IMG/VR virus record: IMGVR_UViG_3300005617_000028
Location: 62,001 to 126,000 of that record
Strand: one strand, 5' to 3'
From: a virus
Length of the DNA stretch: 64,000 nucleotides
Shown piece by piece: positions 21,814 through 62,763 of the stretch. The notes under the pieces are model-generated. The model did not search any database and had not been told where the DNA came from. It saw nothing but the letters and a program-made list of their open reading frames with translations. The translations under genes and the position numbers were made by a program. The first letter of the stretch is position 1. Each line of letters opens with the position of its first letter.

Positions 21814-22836
21814 ATGACTGCCGAAATGACTCGATTCGCCCGATCGCTGGACAGTACGGAATTTCAGCCGTTGAACGGCAGGCGTGACCCGTTCGATCTA
21901 CTGTCCAGTGTGAGTGCCAACGTTGGCGACGCACAGACCATGATGGAAACGGCCGGCGTACTCGGTTGGTCGCCGGAAATGATTCCGCTATCCGGAATGG
22001 ATAGCGTCGGCAACATGTACGAAACTCCGGCCAGCAATTACGGAATCGTCGTACCGACCTATCCGACAGGTCCGGCCTATTTCGGTCAGGCTCACAAGGA
22101 TTTCAAATTCATCCGTCCGGAAGCGTTGCATCCGCTGATCGACGCGATTGTCGCGCACGGCAATCCGCTCACGGGGATTATTCCGGGCCCGGTTACCCGA
22201 TTCGTCTTCGATTCTAAACTGATCGACATCACGCCGTATAGCAAGGCAGCGGCTGAGAACATCGGCGAAATTATCCGTGTGCGCTGGCAACTGGACCTCG
22301 GCAACACTGGCAAGAATTCCCTTGTCATTGGCCAGAAGGGTATGCGTCTAATCTGCGCGAATGGGGTGAGTACGGCTTCGTCAATGGGTAGCGTGTCGAT
22401 CTCGCATAGCAATCTCGCGCCGGGCAAGATCGCTGCCACGGTCGATCGGATCATGAGTCAGGGAAACATCGGACTCGATAAGTGGATTACGGACGCTCGC
22501 CAGACGATCAACGCTCGCTTGACACTGGACGGAGCACTCGCACTGTGGGCGGATCTGTTCTCATGGACTGACGACAAGGACGGGCGCGCGCTCACCACAC
22601 AAGACTCGCAGCGTGCGACGCTTACCCAGCTCTGGCGGTCCCCTACCCAGACGATCACGTACCCGGAAACAGCGTGGGCGTTTTTCGGCGCGACAACCGA
22701 ATACCTCGACCATGAGGCGACCGTCCGATTTGGTGGCGACACTCGTGAGCGTGCGCTCGCACGTCGGGTAGTCGAGTCCGCTCCGGCCGTCGAGTCCGTC
22801 AAGAATCGCGCATGGGAGATGGCGCTAGCCGTCTAG
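21814..22836 (+). CDS. DUF932-family protein, second copy
   Basis: 340 residues from ATG 21814; arms GGCT (21791-21794) and AGCT (21807-21810, one G-U pair). Family features: TAGVLGWSPEMIPL near residue 50, a beta-rich core (ITRF-type VTRFVFDSKLIDITPY) and KGMRLICANGVSTASSMGSV, the typical 'R.(V/I)C.NG' motif. The C-terminal half is helical and ends SVKNRAWEMALAV. The codons are clearly less GC-biased than those of the other copy at 8177, which suggests a different origin. The family's biochemical role is not established. Confidence 0.78.
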   Translation: MTAEMTRFARSLDSTEFQPLNGRRDPFDLLSSVSANVGDAQTMMETAGVLGWSPEMIPLSGMDSVGNMYETPASNYGIVVPTYPTGPAYFGQAHKDFKFIRPEALHPLIDAIVAHGNPLTGIIPGPVTRFVFDSKLIDITPYSKAAAENIGEIIRVRWQLDLGNTGKNSLVIGQKGMRLICANGVSTASSMGSVSISHSNLAPGKIAATVDRIMSQGNIGLDKWITDARQTINARLTLDGALALWADLFSWTDDKDGRALTTQDSQRATLTQLWRSPTQTITYPETAWAFFGATTEYLDHEATVRFGGDTRERALARRVVESAPAVESVKNRAWEMALAV

Positions 22837-22851
22837 GCAACGCGCACGGGT

Positions 22852-22885
22852 GAGGCGAGGGGACAGTCCCCTCGCCTCGCTCTTG
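22852..22885 (+). terminator. Rho-independent terminator
   Basis: A perfect 12-bp stem (22852-22863 with 22867-22878), 3-base loop, then a T-rich stretch (GCTCTTGTTTG). Ends the DUF932 transcript. Confidence 0.85.
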
Positions 22886-22908
22886 TTTGTCATACGTACG
22901 TTGTTCGT

Positions 22909-22938
22909 TTGACTTAGGTACAGCACGGATGCTAGTTT
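22909..22938 (+). promoter_or_regulatory. Class A promoter
   Basis: TTGACT (22909-22914), 18-base spacer, TAGTTT (22933-22938). Serves the gene at 22995. In its leader the arms GGCC (22955-22958) and GGCC (22970-22973) lie 22 bases before the start. Confidence 0.7.
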
Positions 22939-22994
22939 GACATCTCAACCAAACGGCCACGGATAATCGGGCCCAGAGCAAAGGATCAGCCATC

Positions 22995-23327
22995 ATGGAT
23001 GTCAACGCTACGTGGTCAGAAATTCTCGCCATCCTGTCGCAGCCGATGACATCGGAAAACGCAGACCGGCTCGAAGAGCTTGCCTACGCGCTTGACGGTT
23101 GGCTTGCGCGTGGCGGTTACGCTCCCGGTACTTGGCCGGTAGGCACACTCGGGTACTACCGCCACGCATGCGCTTACGGTGAGTCGGTAGGCATGTCCGA
23201 TGGCGAGTGCGTCACGTACGCCGCATGGTTCGTGGCGGAATGGGCAACCGACATCGACACAGACACGGATCACACTCGCGAGGTAGTGCGCTTCCGTCGG
23301 ATCATGAGCGTCGCCACGGTCGTCTAG
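22995..23327 (+). CDS. Unknown protein, paralogue of 23754-24155
   Basis: 110 residues from ATG 22995. The C-terminal half (YYRHACAYGESVGMSDGECV then TYAAWFVAEW) matches the same part of the gene at 23754 (WRHAYYYAEVVHHMYADECE then AYAEWF), so the two are related copies. Both have the same promoter class and near-identical terminators. Acidic, helical, no known motif. Confidence 0.68.
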   Translation: MDVNATWSEILAILSQPMTSENADRLEELAYALDGWLARGGYAPGTWPVGTLGYYRHACAYGESVGMSDGECVTYAAWFVAEWATDIDTDTDHTREVVRFRRIMSVATVV

Positions 23328-23346
23328 CCCGTACGCCGCAACGCGG

Positions 23347-23380
23347 AACCGCGCCACCCAAACCATGGGTGGCGCGGTTT
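23347..23380 (+). terminator. Rho-independent terminator, copy 1
   Basis: A 13-bp stem (23347-23359 with 23367-23379), 7-base loop, ending TTT. The roughly 50 bases around it recur almost unchanged at 24160-24208. Confidence 0.85.
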
Positions 23381-23408
23381 CTGTATCTGCCCTACATCTG
23401 TAGTCTGT

Positions 23409-37873: not shown

Positions 37874-38830
37874 GTGATCACGTTTGTCTCGGCACGCAAC
37901 TGGCAGAGCCTGCGCTCGGTGGATCTGAGCCTGGGCCGGTTCACCGTCATTGTCGGCCCGTCCAACAGCGGAAAGAGCGCTCTGGTGCGCGCCCTGCGCG
38001 CGGTGGCCAGCAACGTCCGCGGCGGCGGCAACGTCACCCGTGGCGCCCGGGCCGCCGCGGTGGCCGTCACCACCAGCGCCGGGCACATCGTCACCCTTGA
38101 ACGCTCCGCCACCGCCGGCAGCTACCGCATCGTCAACCCCGACGGCACGGAAGACACCTACACCAGCCTCGCCGGCGCCGTCCCGGAGGCAGTCACTCGG
38201 GCGCTGGGCATCCAACCCATCCCCGCCGGCGGTACCTCCATCAACGTGGCTGGCCAGCTCGACCCGCCCTACCTGCTCGCCGACACCGGCGCCACCGTCG
38301 CCCGGGAGCTGGGGGAGCTGACCAACGTCACCACCATCTTCGCCGCCGTCCGCGAAGGCGCCCGCCGCCGCACAGCGCTGGCCGGCCTGCTCAAAACTCG
38401 GGAAGCGGACCTGGTCACCGTCAGCGCCTCCGCGCAGGCCTTCGCCGCCCTACCCACCAGAATGGTCGGCTGCGCCGCCGCGGAGGAGGCCCTGCAACGC
38501 GCGCAGGCCGCCGCCAGCAAAGTGGCCCGGCTGCGCGCCGCCACCCAGAGCCTGGTCATCGCCGAAGAGGTCCTGGCCCGCACCGCCGTCCCCGACGTAC
38601 CGTCTTTCGACGCTGTGCACGCCGCCCACACCCGGCTGGTTCGGTTCCGGGCCGTCATCACCGCGGCCACCACCGCCCACAACGCCGTGTGGACCACCAC
38701 CGCGGCCGCCGACCAGGCCCACGCCGACGAAGCGGCCACCGACCAGCAGCTGCATGACGCACTGGTCGCCCTGGGCACCTGCCCCACCTGCCGCCAGCCC
38801 ATCCGGAAACCGTCGCCGGTACGCCGGTAG
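37874..38830 (+). CDS. Rad50/SbcC-like ATPase, N-terminal half with zinc hook
   Basis: 318 residues from a GTG. It starts like SbcC/Rad50/RecF ATPases (FVSARNWQSLRSVDLSLGRF) with Walker A GPSNSGKS at residues 28-35. A helical region follows from about residue 160, rich in Ala and Arg as in a coiled coil, and the end is GTCPTCRQPIRK with the zinc-hook CPxC at 303-306. It has no Walker B, signature or H-loop. Those occur in a separate gene at 43202-43855. The obvious reading is that the two halves of one Rad50-type ATPase are encoded apart and join through hook and coiled coil. The next gene encodes the nuclease partner. Confidence 0.85.
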   Translation: MITFVSARNWQSLRSVDLSLGRFTVIVGPSNSGKSALVRALRAVASNVRGGGNVTRGARAAAVAVTTSAGHIVTLERSATAGSYRIVNPDGTEDTYTSLAGAVPEAVTRALGIQPIPAGGTSINVAGQLDPPYLLADTGATVARELGELTNVTTIFAAVREGARRRTALAGLLKTREADLVTVSASAQAFAALPTRMVGCAAAEEALQRAQAAASKVARLRAATQSLVIAEEVLARTAVPDVPSFDAVHAAHTRLVRFRAVITAATTAHNAVWTTTAAADQAHADEAATDQQLHDALVALGTCPTCRQPIRKPSPVRR

Positions 38831-38874
38831 AGGTCACTGTGAGGTCCACCTCACCCAAGACGGGAGGCGCACCG

Positions 38875-39849
38875 GTGACTGGAGTCCTACTGGTCAACGA
38901 CATCCACCTGGCTGACCGGCCCCCGTCGGCGTGCACCGACACCTACACCGAAGACCTGTTCGCCCTGCTGACCAACATCGCGGACCTGGCCCGCACCACC
39001 CACGCCACCGCGGTCGTCTGGGCCGGCGACGTGTTCCACTCCAAGATCCCCGCCCGCACCTCCCACGCCACCGTACGGGCCCTCATCGAAGTCGCCCGCG
39101 CCCACCCGTGCCCGGTCCTGGTGGTGCCCGGCAACCACGACCTCACCCACGACCGGCTCGACTCCCTCGACCACGCCCAGCCCCTCGGCGTGCTGTTTGC
39201 CAGCGGCGCGGTCACCATGCTGGACCGCTGGTCAGCGGTGGAGCAGCACGCGGTCAACCTGCCCATCTACGGCGTGCCCTGGCTGAAAACCTTCACCGAC
39301 GACACCGTCGGGGACGCCCTGGCCGACTGGCGCAGCCGGGTGTCCGCCGCGACGGTGGGCCTGGTCGTCACCCACGCCCCGCTGTACCCGCCCGGGCAGG
39401 AACTGCCGTACGAGAACTACCCGGCCGCCCAGTGGGCCAAGGCGATGGACAACCACGGCACCGTCCACTACGGACACGTCCACGAGCCCCACGGCATCTA
39501 CACCGTGGACGGAGTCACCTTCTCCAACCCCGGCGCGCTGTCCCGGGGCAGCCTGCACGAACACAACCTGAGCCGTCCGGTGGCCATCGCCGCCTGGGAC
39601 CCGAAAACCGGGGCCGTCACCCACCACACCCTGCCGTCCCGGCCGGCGGATGAGGTGTTCCGCCTGGCCGAGATCAGCCAGTCCACCGCCAGCCAGCAAC
39701 GCCTCGACGACTTCCTCGACACCATCGGACAGACCCGCATCGAAGTGACCTCCATCGAAGCGGTGGTGGCCCACATCCGCGGCATGGAGCTGGGCGGCGA
39801 CCTGGAAGCCCTCATCGCGGAACTGCTCGCCGAAGGCGCCCACCGGTGA
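38875..39849 (+). CDS. Mre11/SbcD-like nuclease
   Basis: 324 residues from GTG 38875, chosen because GGGAGG lies 7 bases upstream; a GTG at 38839 would add 12 residues. All calcineurin-like phosphoesterase motifs are present: VNDIHLAD (Asp9, His11), VVWAGDVFHSK (Asp52), PGNHDLTHDR (Asn87, His88), VVTHAPLY and YGHVHEPHG. Mre11/SbcD nucleases open and trim DNA ends and hairpins under control of a Rad50/SbcC ATPase, whose N-terminal half is encoded just before. It overlaps the next gene. Confidence 0.9.
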   Translation: MTGVLLVNDIHLADRPPSACTDTYTEDLFALLTNIADLARTTHATAVVWAGDVFHSKIPARTSHATVRALIEVARAHPCPVLVVPGNHDLTHDRLDSLDHAQPLGVLFASGAVTMLDRWSAVEQHAVNLPIYGVPWLKTFTDDTVGDALADWRSRVSAATVGLVVTHAPLYPPGQELPYENYPAAQWAKAMDNHGTVHYGHVHEPHGIYTVDGVTFSNPGALSRGSLHEHNLSRPVAIAAWDPKTGAVTHHTLPSRPADEVFRLAEISQSTASQQRLDDFLDTIGQTRIEVTSIEAVVAHIRGMELGGDLEALIAELLAEGAHR

Positions 39850-40331
39850 GCGTCGTTGAGCCGGCCCAGGTGGTGTGCGTCGACCTGGACTCCACCCTCA
39901 CTGACACCCGCCACCGCCGCGACCTGTGCCCCACCGTCAATCCCGACTGCAGCTGGGACGACTACCACGCCGCCTGCGCCGGCGACGCCCCGGTGACCGG
40001 GGTGGTCACCCTGGTCCGGATGCTCGTCACCGCCGGATATGGCATCCACATCGTCACCAACCGCTCCGCCCGCTTCTACGAGAAAACCGTGGCCTGGCTT
40101 ACGCAGCACAACGTTCCACATCACCACCTGGCCATGCGGCCGGGGGACATTGCGTTGGAGGACACCAACCGGTGGAAGCTGCAGTACCTGGCCTACCTGG
40201 ACCGGGTCGAAGGCTACGAGGTGCGGCTGTTCATCGAAGACTGGCCGGAAACCGCCAATGCCATCGAAGCCGCCGGCGTACCGGTGCTGTGCATCAACCC
40301 CCGCTACGCCACCGCCCCGGTACCGGCGTGA
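39846..40331 (+). CDS. HAD-family phosphatase, polynucleotide phosphatase-like
   Basis: 161 residues from a GTG overlapping the previous stop. VVCVDLDSTLTDTRHRRDL is HAD motif I (nucleophile in DLDST), IHIVTNRSARFYEKT motif II, and LFIEDWPETANAIEAAG motif IV. The pattern resembles the phosphatase half of phage polynucleotide kinase-phosphatases and 5'-nucleotidases. Between a nuclease gene and another nuclease gene, DNA end repair is a likely use. Substrate is not shown. Confidence 0.82.
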   Translation: MSVVEPAQVVCVDLDSTLTDTRHRRDLCPTVNPDCSWDDYHAACAGDAPVTGVVTLVRMLVTAGYGIHIVTNRSARFYEKTVAWLTQHNVPHHHLAMRPGDIALEDTNRWKLQYLAYLDRVEGYEVRLFIEDWPETANAIEAAGVPVLCINPRYATAPVPA

Positions 40332-41137
40332 GCCCCGACATCGACATCCGGATCAGCTGGTCCGGCATCCGCAATCACGAGGAGTGCCGACAACGCTCGT
40401 CGCTGCTGCGCGCCGGCAAACGCAACCCGCTGGGCAACCTGCGCTCCTACTTCCACGGCATGGTCGTCGACCGGGCCTGCCGGGACTGGCTGGCCGACCC
40501 CGCCCGCGTCGACGGCGGCATGCTCGCCATGATCGACTCACTGATCGACACCGAAGCCACCCGCGCCCGGGAAAGCGGCGACGGCATCGTCAAATGGAAA
40601 AGCCCCGGCGACCGCGGCGAGCTGCGCGCCTTCTGCGCCGAATTGGTGCAGCGCCTGGAGCCGATGCTCTACGAACACGTGCTGCCCTATCCGTTCCAGG
40701 CGGGGCTGCGTTTCGCGGTACCGGTGAGCGTGCCCTACCTGGATGGCACCCCCACCACCATCCACCTGGTCGGGGAGATGGACATCCTCGTCGACCACGA
40801 CGGGTACCGGCCGCTGGACCTCAAAGGCACCAAGGACGGCTCGTACTGGCGCAAGGTGGTGGGGCAGCTGGTCTTCTACGACCTGGCCGTCATGCTGCTG
40901 CACCAGCGCCGCTGCCACTCCGCCGCACTGATCCAACCCATGTGCACCCAGCCGTACCTGCAGTTCGTGTTCACCGACGACGACCGGCGTGCGATGTGGG
41001 CCCGCATCATCGCGATGGCCTCCGACATCTGGCGGGGCGAGGCCAGCTGCACCACCGACGTCAACCACTGCACGTTCTGCTCGGTACGCCACGCCTGCGC
41101 CCGGTTCACACCCGCCGCACCGTTCGCCCGCGCCTGA
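40328..41137 (+). CDS. Cas4/RecB-type PD-(D/E)XK nuclease with iron-sulfur cluster
   Basis: 269 residues from a GTG overlapping the previous stop. The nuclease core has His43, GEMDILVDHDG (Asp152), RPLDLKGTKDGSYW (Asp164, Lys166) and GQLVFYDLAVML (Gln180, Tyr184). Cys20 in the N-terminus and NHCTFCSVRHAC (Cys248, 251, 257) are placed to hold a 4Fe-4S cluster, as in Cas4, AddB and phage exonucleases. It should degrade or resect DNA ends, giving single strands for the RecA-like protein. No CRISPR genes are present, so a Cas role is not suggested. Confidence 0.88.
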   Translation: MSPDIDIRISWSGIRNHEECRQRSSLLRAGKRNPLGNLRSYFHGMVVDRACRDWLADPARVDGGMLAMIDSLIDTEATRARESGDGIVKWKSPGDRGELRAFCAELVQRLEPMLYEHVLPYPFQAGLRFAVPVSVPYLDGTPTTIHLVGEMDILVDHDGYRPLDLKGTKDGSYWRKVVGQLVFYDLAVMLLHQRRCHSAALIQPMCTQPYLQFVFTDDDRRAMWARIIAMASDIWRGEASCTTDVNHCTFCSVRHACARFTPAAPFARA

Positions 41138-41149
41138 AAGGAGCCCGTG

Positions 41150-41410
41150 ATGAGCCAGACCGTCGTCAGCGCCGAGGGCCAGATCCGTGCCCTGCAGGAC
41201 CGCCTGGCCACTGCCCAACGGGCCCGGGTACGCGCCGAACACGAACGCGACACCGCCGCCGCCAGCGCCCGCACCGCCGCCGACGCGCTGCGTGAAGAAT
41301 TCGGCGTATCCACTGTGGAGGAAGCCAAGGACCTGCTCGCCACCCTGGAGCAGGACCTGGCCGCGCAGCTGGCCACGGTCACCGGACGACTCGACCAGCT
41401 GGGCCAGTAA
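41150..41410 (+). CDS. Small coiled-coil protein
   Basis: 86 residues from ATG 41150, chosen because AAAGGAG lies 6 bases upstream (GTG 41147 is too close). Nearly all coiled coil (QIRALQDRLATAQRARVRAE to REEFGVSTVEEAKDLLATLE). Proteins with this 'EEFGVST.EEA..LL..LE' pattern recur in actinophages. Lying between the nuclease and the clamp, in the same operon as the split ATPase, it could be a partner of that ATPase; this is inference. Confidence 0.7.
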   Translation: MSQTVVSAEGQIRALQDRLATAQRARVRAEHERDTAAASARTAADALREEFGVSTVEEAKDLLATLEQDLAAQLATVTGRLDQLGQ

Positions 41411-41418
41411 GCCACCGC

Positions 41419-42615
41419 ATGCGCAGCCTCGTCGACACCCACGCCTTCATCGGTGCGCTGCTCGCGCCGGAGCCGGCCGAGGCGGATACCCGCACCGAGG
41501 CGACCCCGATCACATTCACCGCCCAGTACCCGGTCTTCGCCACCGCCCTGGAACGCGCCGCCGTGGTCCTGCCGGCCGGGGACACCATGCCGGTACTGCG
41601 CAACTTCCAGATCCACGTCGGCACCGACCGGCTACGGATCATCGCCACCGACACGCAGCTGTCGATGCTGGTCAGCGCCCACACCCTCACCTCCCGGCCC
41701 GGGGTTTTCGTCCTGCCCGCCAAACGCGGCCTGGAGATCATCAAAGAGGCCGCCGGGGACACCGTCGAACTGGCGGTGCGGTCCTCGGTGGCCAGCATCA
41801 CCATCGGGCGGACCACCTGGAACCTGCGGCTGCCCGGCGGCGCGGACTATCCGCCGATGCCCGACCTGACCGAGGTCACCCTCACCCCGGTGGGCCGGGC
41901 CGCCCTCGCCGCCGCGTTGGCGACGGTGCGGTACGCCGCCGGCCGCGACGCGGGCAAGCCCGCCCTGATGCAGGTCGACGTCAGCCGGGGCCGGTTCACC
42001 GCCTCCGACGGGATCCGCTTCCAACAGGCCACCCTCAGCACCGAACTGGGCGACTACGCCGTACCGGTCACCGCCGTCGACGACCTGCTCAAACTGCTCC
42101 GTGGCAGCGACGCGGCGGAGATCACCATCGGGGAAACCGCCCGGCACCTAGTGTTCGGCTTCGGCGCCGACATCCTCATCGTCACCCGGCTCACCGCCGC
42201 ATTCCCCGACATGGCCTCGCTGCTGCTCCGCCCCGCGCTGGAAAACACCCGCCCGCTCACAGTGGCCCGCGCCGAGCTGCTGGCCGCCGTCAAACGGGTC
42301 CGGATCACCGCCGACCCGCAGACCCTCGCCGTCGGGCTCACCCTCGCCGACGGGGCACTGACCGTGCGGGCCCGCGACGAACACGGCAACGACGCCACCG
42401 AAACCCTCACCGCCGGCTGGGCCGGCACCGCCCACACCGTGGTCCTCAACCACACCTACCTCACCGACATGATCGCCGCCTGCCCGCAGGACACCCTGCA
42501 CTTCCGCCTCGGCGAAGACAGCGTCACCCGCAAGGCGCCGCTGCTGCTCACCCACACCGACACCGGTGCCGTCGGTGTCGTCCAGCAGATGCACATCGAT
42601 TGGAGCCATCGCTGA
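41419..42615 (+). CDS. dnaN: DNA polymerase III beta-type sliding clamp
   Basis: 398 residues from ATG 41419. Three clamp-like domains are evident: FATALERAAVVLPAGDTMPV with VLRNFQIHV in the first, GDYAVPVTAVDDLLKLLRGS in the second, and HTVVLNHTYLTDMIAACPQD near the C-terminus. The start FTAQYPVFATAL resembles the first helix of DnaN. The clamp tethers the polymerase to DNA. A gamma/tau loader is encoded at 43973. A bacterial-type clamp with a family A polymerase is notable; the C-terminal addition on that polymerase may serve this link. Confidence 0.88.
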   Translation: MRSLVDTHAFIGALLAPEPAEADTRTEATPITFTAQYPVFATALERAAVVLPAGDTMPVLRNFQIHVGTDRLRIIATDTQLSMLVSAHTLTSRPGVFVLPAKRGLEIIKEAAGDTVELAVRSSVASITIGRTTWNLRLPGGADYPPMPDLTEVTLTPVGRAALAAALATVRYAAGRDAGKPALMQVDVSRGRFTASDGIRFQQATLSTELGDYAVPVTAVDDLLKLLRGSDAAEITIGETARHLVFGFGADILIVTRLTAAFPDMASLLLRPALENTRPLTVARAELLAAVKRVRITADPQTLAVGLTLADGALTVRARDEHGNDATETLTAGWAGTAHTVVLNHTYLTDMIAACPQDTLHFRLGEDSVTRKAPLLLTHTDTGAVGVVQQMHIDWSHR

Positions 42616-42630
42616 TGAGTCCGTGTGTGG

Positions 42631-42927
42631 TCAAAGATCCAGGTAGGTGCGCAGACCGGCATCGACGCTGCGCAGCGCTGTGGCCGTCAGGGCGCCAAGA
42701 CGGGTCTGTACTGCCGTCGGATCCACCGGGCGCAGCCGCACCAGGTCCACCACACCGGTTACGGGATGGTCAACGGCGACCGCGACAGTGCTGGGCAACG
42801 GCTGATCTGTTGAACCGCGGACAACGACGAAGGTCGCCCGGGTCGCACCGTACCGAGTGGCCGACACGATCACGATGCGCGCCCGCTGACTGCCCACCAC
42901 GTACTCATAGACCTCACCGCGCTTCAC
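42631..42927 (-). CDS. mazF: MazF/PemK-like toxin
   Basis: 98 residues on the minus strand from a GTG overlapping the antitoxin stop. KRGEVYEYVVGSQRARIVIV then SATRYGATRATFVVV matches the start of MazF-type RNases, and VDLVRLRPVDPTAVQTRLGA the later core. MazF enzymes cut mRNA at short sequences. It faces the clamp gene, ending 16 bases after it. With the antitoxin gene it splits the replication operon. Whether it acts as abortive infection, host shut-off or stabilisation of the prophage is unknown. Confidence 0.8.
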   Translation of the reverse strand: MKRGEVYEYVVGSQRARIVIVSATRYGATRATFVVVRGSTDQPLPSTVAVAVDHPVTGVVDLVRLRPVDPTAVQTRLGALTATALRSVDAGLRTYLDL

Positions 42928-43151
42928 GGCCGGGCCCCACGGTCAACCGCCTCCAAGGCGGCCTCGATAGCCTTGTCCTCCTCGCTCCACGACTGTCGCC
43001 ACCGCTCGTAGACACCCAGGTCCTCCGCCGCGGCCAGCTCCCGGATGGCCCGCTCCACCCATGCGGACAGCTCGACGCCGGCCGCGGTGGCATGCCGGCG
43101 GGCAGTATCGGCGGCCACATCATCAAGACTCAGAGACGTTTTCACCTTCAT
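42924..43151 (-). CDS. mazE: MazE-like ribbon-helix-helix antitoxin
   Basis: 75 residues on the minus strand. MKVKTSLSLDDVAADTARRH then VELSAWVERAIRELAAAED is a ribbon-helix-helix N-terminus. The tail VYERWRQSWSEEDKAIEAAL is the likely toxin-binding part. It overlaps the toxin gene by 4 bases in the usual antitoxin-first order. The start lies in a palindrome that is probably its own operator. Confidence 0.8.
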   Translation of the reverse strand: MKVKTSLSLDDVAADTARRHATAAGVELSAWVERAIRELAAAEDLGVYERWRQSWSEEDKAIEAALEAVDRGARP

Positions 43152-43180
43152 ACCGCCGATCTTACTGCCAAACGGCGGTA
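43151..43180 (-). promoter_or_regulatory. Operator and promoter of the MazEF-like pair
   Basis: TACCGCCG (43151-43158) and CGGCGGTA (43173-43180) form an inverted repeat with a 14-base centre. On the minus strand the centre contains TAAGAT, a good -10, 7 bases before the ATG, whose first bases belong to the repeat. A leaderless, self-repressed transcript is likely. Confidence 0.65.
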
Positions 43181-43201
43181 CACCCGTGGTGGGTGGTCGG
43201 G

Positions 43202-43855
43202 ATGAGCATCGACGCGCTGCCCGCCCTGCACCAACGCTGCCGCCTGATCCGGCGCACCCTGGACCAGCAGGTCGGCGAGGCCCGCGGCCTGGCCGTGGCC
43301 GGCAAGCGCCTCACCGAGGAAACCGCCGGGCTGCGCCGCCAGATCGAGCTGCTGGACCGGGCCACCGGCGTGCTCACCACCATTGGCGAAGAGCGTCAGG
43401 CCACCGCCCAGACGCAGATTGAAGCCCTCGTCACCCGCGGCCTGGTGACCATCTTCGGTACCGACCTGTCCTTCCACCTGGTCGCCGTGGTGCGTGGCAA
43501 ACGCCCCGAAGTCGACTTCGTGGTCCGCTCCCGGCTGGGCGACACCGTCGTGGACACCGACGTCATCGACGCCCGCGGCGGTGGCCTGGCCGCCACCGTC
43601 GGGTTCCTGCTGCGCCTGGTCGTGCTGCTGCTGTCGGCGAAACCCGGCACCGACAGCGTGCTCATCCTCGACGAGACGTTCGCCCACGTCAGCGCCGAAT
43701 ACGAACCTGGTCTGGCCGAATTCCTGGCCGAGCTGGTCGCCCGCACCGGGGTGCAGATCATCATGGTGACCCACTCCGACGTGTACTCCGAACACGCCGA
43801 CGCCCGGTACCGGTTCACCCTCAAAGACGGCGTCACCACGGTCGCCGCGGTGTAG
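43202..43855 (+). CDS. Rad50/SbcC-like ATPase, C-terminal half
   Basis: 217 residues from ATG 43202. The first 75 residues are coiled coil (QQVGEARGLAVAGKRLTEET, continuing). Then come the ABC-type signature region VIDARGGGLAATVGFLLRLV (121-140), Walker B SVLILDETFAHVS (152-164; Asp157, Glu158) and the H-loop IIMVTHSDV (His191). No Walker A is present. It therefore complements the protein at 37874, which has Walker A and the zinc hook but none of these. Together they would make a complete Rad50-type head. The MazEF-like pair lies directly upstream on the other strand. Confidence 0.85.
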   Translation: MSIDALPALHQRCRLIRRTLDQQVGEARGLAVAGKRLTEETAGLRRQIELLDRATGVLTTIGEERQATAQTQIEALVTRGLVTIFGTDLSFHLVAVVRGKRPEVDFVVRSRLGDTVVDTDVIDARGGGLAATVGFLLRLVVLLLSAKPGTDSVLILDETFAHVSAEYEPGLAEFLAELVARTGVQIIMVTHSDVYSEHADARYRFTLKDGVTTVAAV

Positions 43856-61737: not shown

Positions 61738-62763
61738 GTGAGTAGTTTGCCCGACATTAGCCTTTTGGAGCCGATGGTCCTCCGCGGCGTGGTGGAGAAA
61801 TTCCTGGCACCGGAGAACCTGCCGATGCTCAGCCGTCTCGACCAGACTCCGTGGCCATTCCCGTCAGCGGCGTGGGATGTTATCCGGGGCAGCCGGATGG
61901 TGGCCAAGCCGAACGTGCCCAACAGCGAGGCGCACATCGTTCCGCGGCTGGGCCGGTCGCAGGAAAGCGCCGCGTTCGTCTACCTGCGCGAGAAGAAGGT
62001 CTTCGAACCGACCACCCTGCACTGGCTGCGCACCCCCGGGCAGATCGCGGCGACCAACGCTGAGAAGGCCGTGCTGCGTGAGGTCGCCGACCTCAACCAG
62101 CGTTTCGACAACTTTGCCGAGTTCTGCATCTGGGGTGCGATGAAGGGCCAGCTGGTGCTGGACTTCCCGGACGTGCAGGCCAACATCGACTACAAGATGC
62201 CGGCCACCCACAAGCCTTTCCCCGGTACCGGCTGGGACACCGCCACACCGGCGCAGATCGTCGGCGACGTGCGCGCCTGGAAGCGGGTCATCGCCCGCGA
62301 CGGCCGCGTGCCGGCCAAGGAGGCGTTCGCCACCGAACTCACCCTGGCCTACATCTTCGATGCGTTCGCCACCACCGGCAACGGCACCTCCTTCTTCGGC
62401 GGCACACTGCTGTCGGACCGGATGAAGGACCAGTACTACACCCAGGGCATGCTGCCCGGATTCATGGGTCTGGACTGGAAGACGGTGGAGACCATCTACG
62501 ACGACGAGAGTGGCGTGGCCACCCTGTTCGTCCCGGACAACGCCCTGTTCATGGGCAACTACACCGACCAGCGGCCGATGGAGCTGCTGATCGGCCCGAC
62601 CGCCGATGACGAGGCCCCGGACAACTTCACGGGCAAGTTCGCCAAGACGTGGAAGGACAAGGACCCGTCGGCGCGGCAGTACCTGCTGGAGTGGAATCTC
62701 CTGCCGGTGGTCACCCGGCCCGAGCAGATGGTCTACGTGGCCGACGTGACGTCTACTTCCTGA
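61738..62763 (+). CDS. Major capsid protein
   Basis: 341 residues from GTG 61738 with AGGAGAA just upstream; TTG 61747 is an alternative. LLEPMVLRGVVEKFLAPENL then MLSRLDQTPWPFPSAAWDVI, VVLREVADLNQRFDNFAEFC-type helices, GNYTDQRPMELLIGPTADDE and LEWNLLPVVTRPEQMVYVAD fit the lambda gpE-like family of HK97-fold capsid proteins. Last gene of the head cluster visible here and followed by a strong hairpin. Confidence 0.88.
   Translation: MSSLPDISLLEPMVLRGVVEKFLAPENLPMLSRLDQTPWPFPSAAWDVIRGSRMVAKPNVPNSEAHIVPRLGRSQESAAFVYLREKKVFEPTTLHWLRTPGQIAATNAEKAVLREVADLNQRFDNFAEFCIWGAMKGQLVLDFPDVQANIDYKMPATHKPFPGTGWDTATPAQIVGDVRAWKRVIARDGRVPAKEAFATELTLAYIFDAFATTGNGTSFFGGTLLSDRMKDQYYTQGMLPGFMGLDWKTVETIYDDESGVATLFVPDNALFMGNYTDQRPMELLIGPTADDEAPDNFTGKFAKTWKDKDPSARQYLLEWNLLPVVTRPEQMVYVADVTSTS

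Follow-up and report, generated by a model that had tools for sequence, protein, structure and literature searches.

Models of Rad50 and SMC proteins assume a single chain that runs from an N-terminal lobe to a hook and back to a C-terminal lobe, with signals passing along a continuous rod. The window analyzed here, 64,000 nucleotides (positions 62,001 to 126,000) of the 129-kb viral record IMGVR_UViG_3300005617_000028, raises the question of whether such a protein can also be encoded in pieces, as one of its genes carries the Walker A lobe of a Rad50/SbcC-type ATPase and stops at a zinc-hook motif, and another, further along the same strand, carries the Walker B lobe. On the basis of sequence comparison and structure prediction, we consider it very likely that the two genes encode parts of one Rad50, built of two or three chains and working with Mre11 in DNA-end processing. 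By sequence, Rad50 in separate N- and C-halves, usually accompanied by Mre11 and a small coiled-coil protein (COIL hereafter), is present in many phages and some plasmids, and the split is old and widespread. The two halves in the window comprise the following features.

37874..38830, plus strand: Rad50 N-half, 318 amino acids (aa); N-lobe, three coil helices and a terminal zinc-hook motif
37955..37978, plus strand: Walker A, GPSNSGKS (N-half residues 28-35); G28, G33 and K34 in 113 of 113 aligned N-halves
38255..38257, plus strand: Q-loop glutamine Q128 of the N-half; 113 of 113 aligned N-halves
38780..38791, plus strand: CPTC hook motif (N-half residues 303-306), 12 residues ahead of the C-terminus
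43202..43855, plus strand: Rad50 C-half, 217 aa; an 81-residue helix, then the C-lobe
43574..43585, plus strand: signature-like RGGG (C-half residues 125-128), with Gly at the position of the canonical Ser
43658..43675, plus strand: Walker B and catalytic Glu, VLILDE (C-half residues 153-158); D157 in 87 of 87 and E158 in 86 of 87 aligned C-halves
43772..43774, plus strand: H-loop His191 of the C-half; 83 of 87 aligned C-halves

The motifs split cleanly between the halves, and the catalytic ones are near invariant. As a first-pass annotation of the window had claimed, the N-half combines Walker A with a terminal CPTC and lacks Walker B and signature, the C-half contains DARGGGL (residues 123-129), LILDET (154-159) and VTHS (189-192) and lacks Walker A, and the boundaries of both open reading frames (ORFs) stand. 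Walker A and the Q-loop, which mark the N-terminal lobe of Rad50/SbcC, occur together in all 113 aligned N-halves; the C-terminal lobe is represented by Walker B, D-loop and H-loop, with the D-loop serine (S164) retained in 79 of 87 C-halves. The putative zinc hook, CPTC, follows the last predicted helix of the N-half. More generally, CxxC lies at or near the C-terminus in 194 of 198 N-halves, nearly always 2-16 residues ahead of the end, and in none of the COIL or C-half proteins of the same survey, so the chain is cut directly after the hook cysteines.

Pfam yielded weak, generic AAA matches only for either half, and in profile searches of the PDB, Rad50 was the top match of both. The best matches of the C-half were the separate C-terminal chains 3qkr_B, 1ii8_B and 1f2t_B, with the single-chain 3qku_A ranking between the last two. 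An AlphaFold model of the N-half (113 aligned sequences; predicted local distance difference test, pLDDT, 92) consists of a lobe, helices at residues 152-189, 193-236 and 246-300, and then the hook; that of the C-half (87 aligned sequences; pLDDT 95) consists of a single helix at residues 5-85, followed by a lobe. In Foldseek searches, the matches of the N-half model were heads of Rad50 and SMC proteins, 1f2u chains A and C among them; those of the C-half model were 1f2u chains B and D, 1ii8_B and 3qkr_B. The template modeling (TM) scores of the N-half are low (0.2-0.4 by query length), as is expected if the free coil accounts for half of the model. In the Pyrococcus Rad50 crystal constructs 1f2t, 1f2u, 1ii8 and 3qkr, the N and C segments were expressed as two polypeptides that form one head, and each half described here matches the corresponding chain by both profile and predicted fold. 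The Pyrococcus split was made by crystallographers, whereas that of the phages is natural and has a hook, a coil and a third gene of its own.

Whether the halves belong together was further addressed through their relatives. Scanning viral contigs with the C-half produced 37 loci, and iterated profiles with further scans raised these to 225, which include the window and annotated phages, and some of which are overlapping stretches of one contig. A search of viral contigs with the N-half of the window alone returned no matches, because this N-half is too divergent. Among distant relatives, detected with the iterated profiles, the parts form a compact set of four genes, and 155 of the 157 viral loci with all four parts (112 distinct N/C pairs) share the order N-half, Mre11, COIL, C-half on one strand. 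The ordered cassettes span less than 4 kb in 127 cases, and their genes often overlap (median -22 nt between N-half and Mre11, -17 nt between COIL and C-half). No phage ORF in the 225 loci holds more than one part, so the single polypeptide of Rad50/SbcC was not encountered there. A candidate relative from the scan of genome contigs was discarded, its sole match being an OLD-family ATPase with a Toprim domain; and coliphage IME392 (L266 6224-8989), considered as a split case, instead encodes a single-chain Mre11-Rad50 fusion of 922 aa, annotated as a hypothetical protein.

Related phages that keep one half alone were sought in both directions. The N-half is present in 23 of the 32 records behind C-half loci, the misses being shorter records (the largest 95 kb), and every record fetched by the C-half and of at least about 100 kb also holds it; conversely, of 26 long records, fetched for the most part by the N-half, 25 hold the C-half, which in some lies tens of kb away. 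The co-occurrence of the halves expected from the first-pass annotation is therefore upheld. Further, the N-half is the sole AAA_23 protein in 22 of 22 records, so there is no full-length Rad50 to make the halves redundant. An example of dispersal is Microbacterium phage Magritte, with the N-half as gene 155, Mre11 as gene 228, COIL as gene 245 and the C-half as gene 2, in four separate places.

Plasmids add natural fusions to this picture. On four plasmids (of Paenibacillus, Brevibacillus, Geobacillus and Aneurinibacillus), an ORF of about 800-940 aa joins Mre11, placed first, to an N-half with a terminal CPxC, and is followed by a gene of about 90 aa and then by a separate C-half gene; in Alkaliphilus, Mre11, N-half, small gene and C-half are all separate. 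On Variovorax plasmids, a 97-aa gene precedes a 656-aa C-N ORF and then Mre11; C-half matches were found on four Variovorax plasmids. In this ORF (L260 5830-7800), the C-half (residues 40-190 of the ORF) stands ahead of the N-half (residues 232-454), and the chain ends in CPLC. It is the only C-N fusion seen, and it is permuted; the two parts probably joined after having been separate. Viral relatives of the Variovorax fusion were searched for, and none was found. The permuted chain argues strongly for N- and C-halves working together, and this fusion, the co-occurrence of the halves and the fit of their models to the matching chains of two-chain Pyrococcus Rad50 jointly support, at the level of sequence and model, the two-chain Rad50 that had been proposed for this window.

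Two further members of the set are encoded between the halves.

38839..39849, plus strand: Mre11/SbcD-type nuclease, 336 aa; Pfam Metallophos, 3.5e-11
41147..41410, plus strand: COIL, 87 aa; a helix, an EFGVSTVEEA turn and a second helix; a family without annotation

The presence of an Mre11-type gene after the N-half, noted previously, is borne out by all five motifs of calcineurin-like phosphoesterases (DIH, GDVFH, GNHD, TH and GHVH), as read from the sequence; the NCBIfam Mre11 and SbcD models match at about 1e-9, under their cut-offs. A linked nuclease of this type thus occurs both in the window and in the 155 ordered cassettes. The halves had been described as arranged around the Mre11 gene, which does lie between them, but so do further genes: a HAD/PNKP-like phosphatase, a PD-(D/E)XK nuclease, COIL, a sliding clamp and, on the minus strand, a MazF-type toxin-antitoxin pair. 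COIL is a third conserved component that was overlooked in the first-pass annotation, and it was easy to miss in the window because the parts of the window's own group lie spread out. It is present in 28 of the 32 records with a C-half, and gives 186 matches across the 225 loci, never more than one per locus. The small plasmid proteins are equated with COIL mainly because their size, sequence pattern and position agree.

From the motifs, the predicted fold of each half, and the conservation, co-occurrence and fusion of the genes, all of which were computed directly, we infer how the parts might assemble and act. The N-half would contribute Walker A, the Q-loop, one coil arm and, at its very end, the zinc-hook cysteines; the C-half would supply Walker B, D-loop and H-loop, along with the coil helix that runs back to the head. 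Both lobes would meet in trans to form one ABC-type head, with Mre11 bound to the assembled head and the coil helices paired. The coiled coil, previously suggested to be possibly very short, is of medium length, the N side having about 150 residues and the C side 81: the 81-residue C helix could pair with N helices 152-236 (about 85 residues), leaving N helix 246-300 and the hook to reach past it, where COIL, as a hairpin, would most likely pack. Two such units may dimerize via ATP and, in most members, via a zinc hook formed from the tips of the N-halves. COIL is probably the third chain of this Rad50. We lean, with less assurance than for the split itself, towards a three-chain protein (N-half, hairpin COIL and C-half) in which head and rod are made of separate subunits, no unbroken covalent rod leads from head to hook to head, and some lineages have re-fused the parts in new orders (Mre11-N and the permuted C-N). 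By analogy with T4 gp46/gp47, the likely role would be the trimming of DNA ends for recombination and replication.

Several observations weigh against this proposal, in whole or in part. The position of the signature serine is occupied by glycine in 73 of 87 C-halves and in the window, in the alignment to 3qkr_B, so ATP-driven dimerization or the ATP-bound state may differ from that of canonical Rad50; the signature-like segment reported earlier is real in that DARGGGL and its GG are in place, but atypical in its serine position. The hook is lost in a few N-halves, those of Magritte and its relatives. N-half length (290-424 aa) tracks neither that of the C-half (r = 0.08) nor that of COIL (r = -0.16), which argues against a simple coil whose two arms are equal. 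The correlation between the evolutionary distances of N-half, C-half and Mre11 (r about 0.8) favors the proposal, but is in part due to shared inheritance of one operon. Finally, the plasmid counterparts match the COIL profile weakly, and COIL was not detected in LR745208 (L004, a 485-kb phage), although N-half, Mre11 and C-half are there. This absence lends some weight to the possibility, tentative in our judgement yet to be taken seriously, that the halves form a split Rad50 and COIL stands outside the rod, as an accessory or regulatory subunit binding Mre11, the head or another replication protein. Such a role would suit a protein whose length stays nearly the same as the N coil varies, which has its own helix-turn-helix hairpin pattern, and which is the most divergent of the four parts (distance r of 0.54-0.62 with the others, beyond 30% divergence). 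However, in phage cassettes COIL usually lies directly ahead of the C-half, often overlapping its gene; in the plasmid systems examined, too, the C-half comes after a small coil gene, and this extends to the C-N arrangement of Variovorax; and COIL is retained even where the genes are dispersed.

Other explanations concern the halves themselves, or their purpose. That each half serves in a separate ATPase with a different partner, rather than in one head, might be entertained given that their genes can be tens of kb apart (in Magritte and several other records), but is very improbable in the face of consistent co-occurrence, the C-N fusion, the lack of any other AAA_23 protein and the exact complementarity of motifs. 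Homing endonucleases are a frequent cause of broken phage genes, and an AP2-domain gene lies between N-half and COIL in the Bacillus phage vB_BboS-125. Even so, we give almost no credence to the idea that the halves are left over from a broken rad50 gene or arose as an artefact of assembly, as the split, with conserved active sites, recurs across 112 distinct N/C pairs as well as in isolated phages and sequenced plasmids, and the halves usually have an intact Mre11 gene between them. Fission by a homing endonuclease, considered for vB_BboS-125, fails to explain the common order N-half, Mre11, COIL, C-half. Lastly, the occurrence of the system on large plasmids could indicate that split Rad50-Mre11 serves mainly in defense, counter-defense or the maintenance of plasmid or phage genomes, rather than in recombination. 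We regard this as unlikely: parts of the system lie with the clamp and clamp loader in the window and its relatives, and in one locus (L036) the cassette comes after genes for a clamp loader, SSB, a UvsX-like recombinase, an exonuclease and RusA, a context which suggests a role like that of T4 gp46/gp47 in recombination-dependent replication.

In the N-halves without a hook, those of L002 (8001-9053), L063, L250 and L251, the tail reads ..AARLAAEYVE.., as if replacing the hook; the ends in Magritte and two relatives, which are among these exceptions, differ from the CxxC type and resemble one another, and a further hookless end occurs in G001. COIL is kept in Magritte, and likewise in the L063 and L250 records. 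Among neighboring genes, the clamp loader comes after the C-half in the window, and the MazF/PemK-like toxin gene with its upstream antitoxin-like gene (42631-43151, minus strand), an insertion that parts the sliding clamp from the C-half, was absent from the loci of relatives. An Mre11-like gene of vB_BboS-125 falls in an unannotated stretch (L001 10247-11227; NC_048735.1, about 22423-23403). The sliding-clamp gene of L006 (696-1970) consists of two ORFs in the same frame parted by one stop, and the clamp-loader ORF of L017 (10641-12812) encodes 723 aa, about twice the usual length, and is possibly a fusion.

With respect to known systems, the likeness to Rad50/SbcC, including T4 gp46, extends to the ABC-type head, whose N-lobe bears Walker A and whose C-lobe bears Walker B, the coiled coil, the CxxC hook, the Mre11 partner and the best PDB matches. 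The present proteins differ in that the lobes are on separate genes, the N-half stops at the hook, a small coil protein is added, and the signature Ser is mostly Gly. Archaea-specific SMC-related proteins (ASRP; PMC9389158) are likewise short Rad50-like chains with a zinc hook, but are single-chain and archaeal; the ASRP model NF045487 matches one phage N-half (residues 10-334) at 2.8e-13, under the family cut-off. Yoshida et al. (2011; PMC3175470) described Mre11-Rad50 fusion proteins from both plasmids and viruses, and noted that the fusions of Anaerostipes and of Bacillus phage 0305phi8-36 showed no sign of one P-loop NTPase segment. The available text of that article does not describe this segment as encoded by a gene of its own; in the present set, an Mre11-N fusion goes with a separate C-half gene on four plasmids, and such a gene would explain the unseen segment. 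The N-half of the window belongs to PHROG family phrog_16465 ('exonuclease'; 1.3e-29) and the C-half to phrog_15167 ('ATPase'; 5e-31), two families annotated independently, with no annotation linking both as one Rad50. The open-access literature searched, which mostly does not extend to subscription papers, yielded no account of a Rad50 that is naturally split.

The system is a variant of Mre11-Rad50, more general than could be told from the window alone, and with a third conserved gene. If our interpretation is correct, a widely conserved natural split between the two lobes would mean that continuity of the chain is not needed. A split Rad50 would also account for two phage protein families that are annotated as unrelated, and would offer a small system whose parts are open to separate mixing and mutation, in which the split at the hook, together with the hookless relatives, would allow a direct test of hook and coil function.

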